Shown here: piece by piece, positions 1,825-25,222 of the stretch
How the letters are laid out: each line of letters begins with the position of its first letter
How positions within the stretch are numbered: the first letter of the stretch is position 1
Source of the DNA: Bradyrhizobium diazoefficiens
GTDB taxonomy: Bacteria; Pseudomonadota; Alphaproteobacteria; Rhizobiales; Xanthobacteraceae
Length of the DNA: 64,000 nucleotides
Assembly (NCBI RefSeq): GCF_016616235.1
Contig: NZ_CP067100.1
Location: forward strand, 1,485,001 to 1,549,000
Direction: 5' to 3'
The notes under the pieces: model-generated
Told to the model about the DNA's origin: nothing
The model's database searches: none
Seen by the model: the letters and a program-made list of their open reading frames with translations, nothing else
Program-made: the position numbers and the translations under genes

Positions 1825-4800
1825 TTACGCCCGCGCCACCACCGGCGCGAACACCACTTCGATCAGCGTGCCGGAGCTGCCGGCGCTCTTGATGTTGAAG
1901 CGGGCGCGGTTGGCTTCGACCAGCGCTTTGGTCAATGACAGGCTCAGCGCCGCATTGTCTGCGGCATCCCCGGGCGGCGGGGTGCGGAACGGCTCCATCG
2001 CGGCGGCGAGCTCGCGCTCGCTGAGGCCATGGCCAGTGTCGCGGATGCGCAGCGCGATCTCGCCGCCATCGGTCATCGCGGTGGAGACGATCACCTGCCC
2101 GCCGGCGCTCGCCAGCCGGATCGAGTTCGAGATCAGGTTCATGGTGATCTGCCGCATCGCGCGCGCGTCGGCCGTGACCTGCGGCAGCGCATGGCCCAGC
2201 GAGGTGCGGATGATGATGCGCTCGCGATTGGCTTGCGGCTGCATCACCGTGACGCAGGCCTCGACCAGCTCGTTGAGGTTGAGATCGGCGAAATTGAGAT
2301 CGAGCTTGCCGGTCTCGATCCGCGACAGCTCCAGGAGATCGTCGATGATGGCGATGACGCGCTCGCCGGAGGCGCGGATGTCCTTCATGTACTCGCCGTA
2401 GCGCTCGTTGCCGAGCGTGCCGAAGCGCTCCGAGATCATCACCTCGGCAAAGCCGATGATGGCGTTGAGCGGCGTGCGGATCTCGTGGCTGATCCGCGCC
2501 AGCATGTCGGCCTTGGCATTGGCCGCGCCGTCGACGAGGCGGCGCGCCTGGGTCAGCTCGCTCTCGTCCTTCTTGGCGTGCGAGAGGTCGCGGAACACGG
2601 CGAAGAAGTTCGGCCCGTCGGGCCGCGTGCGGCCCATGATCATGGCGAGCGGAATCACGCCGCCCTTCCTCTCGCGGCCCAGCACCTCGCGGCCGTGGTC
2701 GAGCAGGCTGGCAATGTCCTGGCTCTTGAGGCTTTCGAGATAGTCGACGACGATCTGCCGGCTCTCGGGCGCGAACAGCGTCAGCAGAGTCTGCTCGAGC
2801 AGCGCCTGACCGTCATAGCCGAACAGCGCCTCGGCGCTGCGGTTGCAGGCGTGGATGTTGCCTTCGGCATCGAACATGACGATGCCCTCGGCCGTGGTGT
2901 CGAGGATCGCGGCGAGATCTTCGGCATCGGCATCGCCCGCCTCGAGCTCCGGCTCGATCGGGACCATTGCGATCGGCTCGGCGATAACGGGCGGCGCGAC
3001 GGCCGCCTGCGGCAGCGCGCAGATCAGCGCATGCGCGCTGTCGCCGTCCCAGTCGATGGTGTGCAGATGCGCTTCGGTGGTCGCAAGCGGCGCTTCGCCG
3101 TTGGGAAGCGTGGCGCTGATCGTCACCGGCGTGCCTCCTTGCGAGGTGCTGCTGGCCGACGATACGCCCGGCTCGACATAGAGCGCATCGAGCCCGCCGG
3201 CATCCTCCAGCGCGTTGATGCTGGAATAGCCCATGCGCGCGAGGAAGGCGGGATTGGCGTAGAGCAGGCGGTCGAGGCGGTAGATCAGAATGCCTGTCGG
3301 CACGAGGTCGAGCAGCGCCCGGTCGCGCATGCTGCGGCCTTGCGCGGGCGGCGCCGGCGCGGTCAGCCATTGCGCCGGCGCGTGCGGCGCCTCGGGCTCG
3401 GCCGTCGGCGCTGTGATCTCTCCAGGCATCGGCTCGGCGACGGCCGCGATGCTCTCGCGCTCCCGTTCGAGCCGCTCGGACAATTGCCGGGCGAGCTCGT
3501 TGAATGCGCTGTTCTCGACCGGCGTCAGCGTCGGCGATCTCGAATCGCCGTGCGGGCGGAACGGCACGACGTTGGGAGGGGTTTCCGAGGGCGTTTCCAC
3601 TGACGTTTCCGGATCGGTTGGGTGTGAATTCGCGTCGTTGGTGGAGTCGGGCAGTTCGGCGACAGGCTCGGGTGTGGGTTCAGGCTCGGGTGCCGGCGGC
3701 TCGATCGGTGAAGGCGGCGCCTCGGCCTCGGGTTCTGGCTCCGCAGTTTCGGGCTCATGCCGCGCCGGCGGACCGACCAGCAGCTCATAGCGGCGCAGCG
3801 CCTCGAGTCGGTTGAGACCGTCGAGATCGCGGCAGACGCCAAAGCCCCGGAAGCCCGCAAACTTGCGCTCGCAATCGTAGACCGGCAGGCCGGCGAGCTC
3901 GACCGGAATGTGCTCGCCATCGGCCGGCCAGTTCACGGTGATGCCGGCCCAGGTGTCCTGGCTCGCCAGCGCCGCTGCGACGCGCCCCTCCGGATCGAGC
4001 GCAAATTCCTCGGCGATCTCGCGCCAGGGCCGGCCGAAGCCGGCGGCGGTGCGCGCGCCGATCAGGCGGATGAACTCGTCCGAGCCGAGCACAAAGCGGC
4101 CGTCCGCATCCATCTGCCACAGGAAGCGCAGCGGATGCTGGCGCGGTGGCGCTGCTGACGGCGGCTCGTCCATGCCTGGATTGATCGGCCCGGCTTGGGG
4201 CGGCACAATGGCTGCGGGGATGTTTTCAACCGGAGTTTTGGCCGCAGCGTCGATCGGCTCGACGGCCGTTTCCTGGGTGGGCGCCTCAGCCGCCGCCTTG
4301 ACGGCGTCCTGGATCGATAGGATCTCGGCTGCGCTCGCGGGCGGCTCGGGCGTGCTCTCGATCGTCTCGTCCGGCTCAAGCGGTTCGACCGGCGCGGCAA
4401 AGGCATCGAACAGGTCGATGCCGGCCGGCGCATCCTGCGACGGCGGGGCGCTGGGCGTCGCGGCAGCGTGCTGCGCAGCTTCAACCGGCGCTTCCCGTGC
4501 GGCGTCCGCGGATGCCGCGGGCGCGGCCTGCTGCGCGGCCGGTTCGATCAACGCGATCAGGGCGACATCGGCGCCCGTGCCGACCCGTTGCAGCACCATC
4601 CGGCCGTCAGCGGTCGGCGCCTCGGCGCGCCCGTATTTCAACGCATCGCTGCGCGCCTGGTCGAGGCCCCGATCAGTCAGATCGTGGCAGCCGAGCAGGG
4701 GACGGGCAGCTTCGCTGGCGCCGGCGAATAGGCCGTCAGGCGCGAACGCCGCCATCGGCACCTTCGCGCCCGCGACGAGCCGGTGCAGCCGTTCGACCAG

Positions 4801-18966: not shown

Positions 18967-22431
<3,465 letters not shown>

Positions 22432-22459
22432 CAACTCTCGCCGGGCTGGAATCTGGGCA

Positions 22460-24229: not shown

Positions 24230-24362
24230 CGATTTCGCGCTTCTTCGAGGTTTGCTTTGAGCGGCCTGTCGAAGCGTGCCCGTCTTCGCCCTTCGGGCTT
24301 CGCCGAGGCAGCCTTCGCTACGACAGGGCTTGCCTAGCCGAAGCGGCGTCAGCCGCGAAGGC

Positions 24363-24438
24363 TGGAGACCCGGCCTGGATTTGAACCAGGATAAAGAGCG
24401 ATGCACCGCCCTCGCGTAGACGCTTCCGCCACCGGGCC
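24363..24438 (-). tRNA. Unusual tRNA-like gene, tRNA-Cys(GCA)-like with an 8-nt anticodon loop
   Basis: On the minus strand 76 nt fold as a cloverleaf. The acceptor GGCCCGG pairs with CCGGGTC (one G-U), the D stem is GCG/CGC, the T arm is perfect (CCTGG-TTCAAAT-CCAGG), and CCA is encoded. The discriminator is U73. The anticodon stem AGGGC/GCTCT leaves an 8-nt loop GGTGCATC instead of 7; if the T is taken as U33 the anticodon is GCA (Cys). U73 and GCA are both cysteine identity elements. The D loop GAAGCGTCTA lacks the usual GG, and the variable loop is one base short. It may be a degenerate tRNA, or a genuine non-canonical species. Confidence 0.5.
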
Positions 24439-24492
24439 GGGACAATCATGTCCGATCCGGCGGTGTCAGGCCACCTCAGCCGATGATTATGC

Positions 24493-25194
24493 TTAACGCA
24501 CCAGGGGCGGTCGCGCGACGAAGGTCATGCGCCAGCGATTGTGGCCGATATTGGCGTGCGCACGCTGGGCCGCGAAGCCGGCCGCGGTGAGCTTGGCGGT
24601 GATCTCGTCCTCGCTGTAGCGCTGGAGCCCGATGCGCGAGCGCAGATGACGGTAATCTGACAGTGCGGTGCTGATGAGCCCGATCAGCGCGTCCTTCAGG
24701 AAGCCATGCCGGAGGCCAAAGCTCAGCAGCGCCATCACGTCGCGGCCCATGCCCACATTGGGCTGCAGGATATCGCCGAGCACAAGCTTGCCGGAGGGCT
24801 TCAGGATGCGGCGGATGGTGAGGAGCGCGGCATCGAGCTCCTCGGGCGCCATGTATTGCGCGACCGAGTTCATCACCACCAGGTCGATGGACTGATCCTG
24901 CATCTTGCGGACGTCGTCGAGCGAGCGGACGCGGATCTTTGTGTTCGGGGCAAAGCGCGCAATCAGCCGGCCGCGCACCCCGGGTGCCGGCTCGGCGAGG
25001 ATCAGCTGGCCGCAGGCAGATGCGACCTGGCTCGCCGACAGCGCCTCGCCGCAGGCATAGTCCAGCACGGTCGCGTCGGGCGAGGAGATGTAGCCGATGA
25101 TGTCCCGCGCGATGATCTGGAAGTGCAAATCGCGATGCAGCTTGCTGACATAGATCGTATGCGTGGAGTCGTAGTAATCGATCCAATCGTCCAT
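24493..25194 (-). CDS. SAM-dependent class I methyltransferase
   Basis: A 233-residue protein with the Rossmann-like methyltransferase fold. Motif I is VLDYACGEALSASQVASACG near residue 48, an acidic residue after strand 2 is in LILAEPAPG, and motif IV is IDLVVMNSVAQYM; RILKPSGKLVLGDIL follows as the post-motif strand. The N-terminus MDDWIDYYDSTHTIYVSKLH contains a tyrosine-rich helix. The ATG at 25194 was preferred over an upstream alternative because a GGTCGGGAT tract precedes it. The substrate is unknown; similarity to O- or N-methyltransferases acting on small natural products is only general. It is divergent from dps. Confidence 0.85.
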   Translation of the reverse strand: MDDWIDYYDSTHTIYVSKLHRDLHFQIIARDIIGYISSPDATVLDYACGEALSASQVASACGQLILAEPAPGVRGRLIARFAPNTKIRVRSLDDVRKMQDQSIDLVVMNSVAQYMAPEELDAALLTIRRILKPSGKLVLGDILQPNVGMGRDVMALLSFGLRHGFLKDALIGLISTALSDYRHLRSRIGLQRYSEDEITAKLTAAGFAAQRAHANIGHNRWRMTFVARPPLVR

Positions 25195-25222
25195 GGTATC
25201 CCGACCCAACGGTTCCTGTTCA

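Follow-up and report, generated by a model that had tools for sequence, protein, structure and literature searches.

Results

A tRNA-Cys-like gene upstream of carB

The window, by which we mean the whole 64,000-nt stretch of Bradyrhizobium diazoefficiens DNA that was analysed, contains a 76-nt tRNA-like gene with a methyltransferase gene just upstream and carB downstream. The gene, its parts, the predicted upstream elements and the neighbours are as follows.

24363..24438, minus strand: tRNA-Cys-like RNA gene of 76 nt with an encoded CCA (score against model R1, 105.2 bits)
24432..24438, minus strand: acceptor stem, 5' strand GGCCCGG
24367..24373, minus strand: acceptor stem, 3' strand CCGGGTC, pairing in the parsed sequences
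24363..24366, minus strand: U73 and CCA
24414..24429, minus strand: D arm, stem GCG/CGC, loop GAAGCGTCTA without GG
24395..24412, minus strand: anticodon arm, six pairs AGGGCG/CGCTCT
24401..24406, minus strand: anticodon loop GTGCAT, with GCA at 24402..24404
24391..24394, minus strand: variable loop TTAT, 4 nt, the last base of which pairs with A15 (Levitt pair)
24374..24390, minus strand: T arm CCTGG-TTCAAAT-CCAGG
24445..24450, minus strand: predicted -10 box CATGAT (-12 to -7 from G1)
24469..24474, minus strand: predicted weak -35 region GTGGCC
24486..24497, minus strand: predicted activator site GTTAAGCATAAT, overlapping the stop codon of the upstream gene
24493..25209, minus strand: class I SAM methyltransferase gene, just upstream (Methyltransf_11, E 3.2e-10)
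18967..22434, minus strand: carB, downstream (Pfam CPSase domains)

As described in the initial annotation, the minus strand from 24438 to 24363 contains all the parts of a full-length cloverleaf, with a 7-bp acceptor stem including one G-U pair, a perfect T arm, an encoded CCA and U73. The D loop of the window copy lacks GG as claimed, and GG is likewise missing in 88 of the 112 sequences of the family that could be parsed. The variable loop does have only 4 nt, but this is not the deviation it was taken for, the ordinary tRNA-Cys of the same genome also having 4 nt. A covariance-model check of the 76 nt had been proposed, and in it the window copy fell below the cut-off of the Rfam tRNA model. 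ARAGORN independently called a tRNA at exactly 24363-24438 without assigning an identity (tRNA-???). A permissive covariance-model scan gave five matches, the tRNA model not being among them; the best was mascRNA-menRNA at 22.0 bits, below the cut-off, with tRNA-Sec at 15.4. The folding energy is only mildly unusual (z -1.79, with 12 of 200 shuffles folding equally well) and alone would not convince us of a real tRNA-like gene. That the cloverleaf is real and more than chance is confirmed, at the level of sequence comparison, by its conservation.

Relationship to tRNA-Cys

When 30 of the genome's 46 ordinary tRNAs were compared with the gene, tRNA-Cys was the nearest at 61.6 bits and the next reached 32.9, in agreement with the name it had been given. 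The canonical tRNA-Cys for which a search had been recommended is present in the genome as tRNA-Cys(GCA) (G000:C1:4194914-4194987, L059). Common to both genes are the GGCC start, the GTGGCGGA core of the D arm, the 4-nt variable loop, GCA, U73 and CCA. The ordinary gene differs from the window copy in that its anticodon stem of 5 bp closes a 7-nt loop, its D loop contains GG, its upstream region lacks the site near -60 and its acceptor and T stems are of other sequence. The D arm had been likened to that of class II (Leu/Ser) tRNAs, but it matches the genome's own tRNA-Cys; a class II origin is excluded by this tRNA-Cys type of D arm and by a variable loop of 4 nt rather than a long arm. Judged by this relationship, the gene would be a duplicated tRNA-Cys.

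Conservation and covariation

A direct parse of 117 distinct sequences succeeded for 112, the unparsed ones being L133, L166, L167, L171 and L241. The acceptor stem is fully paired (7/7) and U73 is present in 112/112, and the T stem has all five pairs in 111/112. The figures for these two arms lean high, since part of the sequences were collected with a pattern that itself prescribed nearly all of their letters. The pattern left the anticodon arm unconstrained; its stem occurs in 50 distinct five-pair versions, with all five pairs formed in 108/112. In 26 distinct aligned rows, 99.3% of cells pair and seven pairs change on both sides, which was reached by none of 500 shuffles, the further pair types were reached by 2 of 500, and sliding of the partners destroyed the signal; as the rows share ancestry and also supplied the structure, these shuffle fractions are not to be taken as probabilities. 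Changes on both sides were found at all six pairs of the anticodon arm, and pair 11-24 of the D arm shows a double change from CG to GC. The tertiary pair 15-48 is A-T in 105, G-G in 5, G-C in 4 and other combinations in 7 of 121 distinct sequences, a few ordinary tRNA-Cys included.

Comparison of 56 copies that came from outside the genus, from other genera or families, gave a mean identity of 96% over the first 13 nt and 90% over the last 29 nt, with 26-34% in the flanks, while the flanks of the 18 copies of the genus itself were still 28-73% identical. These figures bear on the suggestion that the gene is a decaying tRNA-Cys pseudogene, for which its atypical loops, its being missed by the Rfam tRNA model and its loss in two genomes (G051 and G124) might speak. 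The initial annotation had named rapid decay of the acceptor or T arm as the sign of a pseudogene, and that test gave the opposite result. Since the acceptor and T arms, with U73, are kept in 111-112 of 112 sequences, and in other genera where the flanks have almost no similarity left, the pseudogene reading fails; the compensatory changes and the common promoter layout described below also stand against it, and we consider it extremely improbable. A real, selected RNA gene derived from tRNA-Cys is well supported by these comparisons.

The anticodon arm

The anticodon loop had been read as eight bases, and eight it has if the stem is given five pairs. However, a sixth pair, 32-38, closes a loop of 6 nt and forms in 94 of the 112 parsed sequences, occurring in the aligned rows as GC, AT and CG with changes on both sides. 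For the resulting 18-nt arm, a stem of 6 bp closing a hexaloop is a better description than a stem with an 8-nt loop, and because the extra loop bases thereby become a covarying stem pair, the comparison with frameshift-suppressor tRNAs is not favoured. The hexaloop is GTGCAT in the window copy and GTGCAW in most relatives, and in the Methylopilaceae it is GGGAAC in all 11 copies read. Among the 94 sequences with an 18-nt arm, 83 carry GCA, 82 have U33 and 46 have a pyrimidine (T or C) at position 37. In the extra copies of L155, L156, L157 and L159, as in the second L160 copy, six pairs close a 7-nt loop that contains GCA and lacks U33. These five extra copies are named plain tRNA-Cys by ARAGORN, and some second copies look near-canonical (L170).

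U73 and GCA are the main identity elements for CysRS. Their coexistence, pointed out in the initial annotation, holds across the family at the frequencies given above, with the Methylopilaceae loops as the exception. Both elements are named for tRNA-Cys in part of the text of PMC7609411. In an elongator, a 5-bp stem would be expected to close a 7-nt loop with GCA and U33; the window copy has either 6 bp with 6 nt or 5 bp with 8 nt. The parts required for decoding drift, and the parts of the L-shape and, mostly, those read by CysRS are kept.

It is likely that the gene does not encode an ordinary elongator. It could still be a special one, a regulated minor tRNA-Cys that in some circumstances reads UGU/UGC or a quadruplet codon; the frequent GCA and U33 in the 18-nt arms and the second copies with 7-nt loops (L155-L157, L159, L170) are in keeping with this, and an 8-nt anticodon loop works in yeast mitochondrial tRNA-Thr (PMC7609411, in part). 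We nevertheless regard a special elongator as rather unlikely, given that the sixth stem pair is both widespread and covarying, that position 37 is so often a pyrimidine, that whole groups lack U33 or GCA and that an ordinary tRNA-Cys is present in the same genome.

A common promoter-like layout upstream

The upstream regions numbered 156, of which 101 were non-redundant. In an unsupervised motif search, run without a shuffled control, RTTARSSTTAAY started between -68 and -54 in 81 of the 101 and exactly at -60 in 48. A simple pattern for this site was found at -68 to -48 in 61 of 77 loci and in 0 of 30 ordinary tRNAs of the own genome, the 61/77 being 64/82 after removal of the duplicate window locus (L009/WIN), L134, L172, L174 and L173. 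L134, L172 and L174, together with the ordinary L173, were left out of the motif, -10/-1 and parse counts and were kept in the 15-48 and terminator counts. The combination of A-11 with T-7, as in the predicted -10 box, was present in 61/101 regions compared with 2/30 of the own ordinary tRNAs and 2/16 ordinary tRNA-Cys of other genomes. In the predicted -35 region, T-35, G-34, G-33 and C-32 are preferred at 53-63% each. The base at -1 is C or T in 101/101, compared with 18/30 own ordinary tRNAs and 4/16 ordinary tRNA-Cys; avoidance of pairing with U73 could also be a cause, although the ordinary tRNA-Cys controls have no such bias. The Methylopilaceae copies beside gyrA belong to the same promoter-layout set.

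A generic scan for sigma-70 promoters and terminators returned nothing in 24250-24550, the predicted -10 and -35 elements included, a result that would fit a weak -35 box and dependence on an activator and is not counted as support for them. From the predicted geometry we infer a regulated promoter that would start transcription at G1 and produce a leaderless tRNA.

CtrA sites are given as TTAA-N7-TTAA or TTAACCAT in parts of two papers (PMC11527210, PMC7200025). The upstream site RTTARSSTTAAY has a spacing of 2 instead of 7, and its window copy, TTAAGCAT, differs from the 8-mer at a single base. The resemblance of the site near -60 to CtrA half sites suggests, and only suggests, CtrA as a lead for the regulator. 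In the own genome the site pattern occurs at 11 places (12 strand matches) against 26 for a reversed-pattern control, and is thus not enriched. Genes for a porin, flagellin, Tlde1-domain and TPR proteins are close to the places L336, L337, L340, L341, L342 and L344, as might be the case in a CtrA-like regulon.

Distribution among relatives

Among 120 relatives searched by blastn, the gene was found in 69 of 72 same-genus genomes, the own genome included. The exceptions are G006, G041 and G051. G006 (93% complete) and G041 (95% complete) have no tRNA-Cys match at E 1e-6 either, and in G051 the methyltransferase gene is followed by the start of carB with no tRNA between them. In the family search, a covariance model built from 27 sequences gave E 3.3e-20 or better in each of the 27 genomes from the same genus, and at least 24 of the 47 genera of the bacterial family (by score) have a genome with a match at E 1e-13 or better. 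The overall tallies of model matches, 279/296 for the family and 304/397 for the order, include ordinary tRNA-Cys and are not presence counts.

From family f35, 13 genomes of a single genus matched at E 5e-14 or better when the order was searched, and two of the f35 sequences are identical to copies of Methylopila jiangsuensis and Hansschlegelia beijingensis, both Methylopilaceae. Second copies also occur in single lineages of families f6, f29 and f41, that of f41 having a near-canonical 7-nt loop. No copy was recognised outside Rhizobiales in 240 genomes drawn from the class, where the 8 matches at E 1e-12 or better besides the own genome, all outside the order, were read as ordinary tRNA-Cys; the large searches used stricter filters, by which weak relatives may be missed. 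A search with an exact pattern gave no viral copies. The carriers named among the matches listed (80 of at least 120 stretches) include Bradyrhizobium, Rhodopseudomonas, Nitrobacter, Afipia, Tardiphaga, Methylopila and Hansschlegelia. Taken by sequence, this is apparently an undescribed tRNA-Cys-like gene family in the order Rhizobiales.

Some loci have further features. Genome G200 (L160) has two different tRNA-Cys-like copies, at 3001-3075 and 3936-4011, about 0.9 kb apart and both before carB. Close to two copies, at L160 3181-3253 and L161 2822-2892, ARAGORN gave additional tRNA-like calls with no identity assigned (tRNA-???, 'cc'). The family f23 genomes G461, G540 and G614 (L134, L172, L174) have a tRNA-Cys with a short D loop without GG; these matches appear to be the only tRNA-Cys of those genomes at E 1e-6.

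Neighbouring genes and the 3' side

In the 63 loci of the bacterial family that were read, the methyltransferase gene ends within 400 nt upstream on the same strand in 51 and carB follows the RNA gene in the same orientation in 51, both neighbours being present in 45 and neither in six, which include extra copies and some short contigs. In many loci carA, a cupin gene and a Dps-like gene are found further upstream, and some loci have ArsR and MFS genes inserted ahead of carB. As an enzyme, the methyltransferase is a generic member of class I. Its protein was found in 10 of 28 genomes tested, six of which (G051, G120, G124, G125, G132 and G137) have no tRNA-like match above about 60 bits, and the RNA is present without the methyltransferase in G105, G138, G434, G483, G521, G527 and G547. 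Since each is kept without the other, a functional link is unsupported and we treat the methyltransferase as a mere neighbour.

The frequent position before carB on the same strand might indicate a cis-acting leader or processing element for carB with no independent RNA. We consider this very improbable, since 10 of 11 Methylopilaceae copies follow gyrA and other copies lie elsewhere, the promoter layout is common to these different settings, and terminators directly follow the gene in 11/11 Methylopilaceae. Terminator-like hairpins within 75 nt after CCA were counted in 19 of 82 rows overall, compared with 2.2 expected from shuffles, the window locus being present twice among these rows (L009 and WIN). 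At 24323-24362, and at the equivalent positions in many Bradyrhizobium, a palindromic repeat-like sequence (beginning CCAGCCTTCGC or CCACGCTTCGC) starts at the CCA end; it may be a REP-like element placed at a tRNA end, or a terminator.

Candidate partner enzymes

PF01406 gave two matches in the genome, the second of which reads by eye as a methionyl-tRNA synthetase, and a second CysRS was rejected. No PEARL-type enzyme was matched in the genome, but no control genome was matched either, so this search was uninformative. Beside the copies outside the carAB region, no protein partner was recognised by eye. A FemAB-like GNAT protein (PF13480) is encoded at L159 1818-2915, adjoining one extra tRNA-Cys-like copy only; the FemAB-like GNAT fold includes tRNA-dependent aminoacyl transferases.

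Discussion

The conserved but odd anticodon arm, together with the promoter layout, points to a job outside routine protein synthesis. The initial annotation had proposed a novel decoding or non-decoding tRNA, and this was the right class of answer. Our preferred reading, held tentatively and with something short of an even chance, is that a duplicate of tRNA-Cys with its own promoter has been set apart from routine decoding, and that it probably still receives cysteine from CysRS and acts away from the ribosome or as a sensor. The promoter would be switched on through the upstream activator site near -60, and transcription would start at the first base of the acceptor stem, leaving nothing for RNase P to remove. 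The RNA would then fold into an L-shape ending in CCA, and where GCA and U73 are kept it would most likely be charged with cysteine by the genome's CysRS; charging is plausible in those lineages in which GCA remains. Since the anticodon arm has 6 bp and 6 nt, or in extra copies 6 bp and 7 nt without U33, the charged RNA would be expected to be a poor elongator. It may instead serve as a cysteine donor to a transferase, or as a sensor that depends on the charging state.

This preferred reading draws on what the sequences themselves show, namely the relationship to tRNA-Cys, the constraint on the stems and U73 amid diverged flanks, the covariation, that of the 15-48 pair included, the frequent GCA and the common promoter layout; the leaderless start, the regulation, the charging and the use off the ribosome are predictions. 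It is also favoured by a loop geometry that in most copies is unlike that of decoding tRNAs, by the loss of U33 in the extra copies with 7-nt loops (L155-L157, L159, the second L160 copy) and by the retention of the gene in different genomic settings, with terminators directly behind CCA in all 11 Methylopilaceae copies. The strongest point against a story based purely on CysRS is the GGGAAC loop of the Methylopilaceae, which is at odds with charging by a CysRS that depends on the anticodon. The strongest argument for some decoding is that U33, a feature of decoding tRNAs, persists in 82/94 sequences with an 18-nt arm. The five extra copies that ARAGORN reads as plain tRNA-Cys, the near-canonical L170, the negative generic promoter scan and the fact that no partner enzyme was found in the searches above also count against the preferred reading.

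The RNA might alternatively be an uncharged regulatory mimic of a tRNA, in which the T arm, acceptor and CCA would serve stability and protein binding and the hexaloop, or a fragment, would bind an RNA or protein. A loop that is fixed within lineages and different between them (GTGCAW compared with GGGAAC) would suit such a role, as would the dispensability of U33 and of the D-loop GG, the predicted regulated promoter and the weak fold similarity to the tRNA-like mascRNA (22.0 bits, below the cut-off). However, there would be no obvious need for an uncharged RNA to keep U73, GCA and the 15-48 pair, as most lineages do, and we consider a mimic somewhat improbable.

A more far-reaching form of the preferred reading, possible but doubtful in our judgement, is that a bacterial tRNA has permanently left translation. 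It would be a leaderless tRNA-Cys derivative, retained through much of an order and possibly under cell-cycle regulation of the CtrA type, that either delivers cysteine, or in the Methylopilaceae perhaps a different amino acid, to a reaction away from the ribosome or informs a regulator of its charging state.

Our search of the open-access literature found no description of this RNA. The main texts of the transcription start site and small-RNA papers on B. japonicum USDA 110 (PMC4842269, PMC5082802), in the parts covered, contain no word beginning with tRNA. Genes of this kind are hidden by standard annotation: the window copy is left without an identity by ARAGORN (tRNA-???) and is missed by the Rfam tRNA model. 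If confirmed, the family would represent a special-purpose tRNA that is widely retained and transcribed from a regulated promoter of its own, and would be a predicted bacterial example of tRNA synthesis without a 5' leader. Its carriers include the well-studied genera Bradyrhizobium, Rhodopseudomonas, Nitrobacter and Afipia, which makes these proposals directly testable.

Several known systems resemble the gene in part. The selC*-type tRNA-Cys and the allo-tRNAs, as described in part of PMC7609411, are likewise extra tRNAs with an unusual cloverleaf, and selC* tRNA-Cys also combines U73 with GCA. Those RNAs have 8/4 or 12-bp acceptor branches, and selC* has a longer variable arm; the window gene has a 7+5 branch and a 4-nt variable loop, and its 7-bp acceptor (112/112) and 5-bp T stem (111/112) exclude membership of either group. 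Yeast mitochondrial tRNA-Thr, which decodes CUN with a functional 8-nt anticodon loop (PMC7609411 and PMC4267643, each in part), also has an enlarged loop, whereas in the window gene the additional bases pair and lengthen the stem to six pairs. In Nanoarchaeum equitans leaderless tRNAs are general and RNase P is absent (PMC10100707 and PMC3491384, in part); the start at the first tRNA base would be common to both systems, being predicted here, and in the present case it would concern one tRNA-like gene in a bacterium. Natural-product enzymes that use Cys-tRNA, such as those of the TglA pathway (described in part of PMC9016710), provide a parallel for a possible use of Cys-tRNA as a donor off the ribosome; no such enzyme was found here, and the likeness lies in the donor role that the charged RNA may have.
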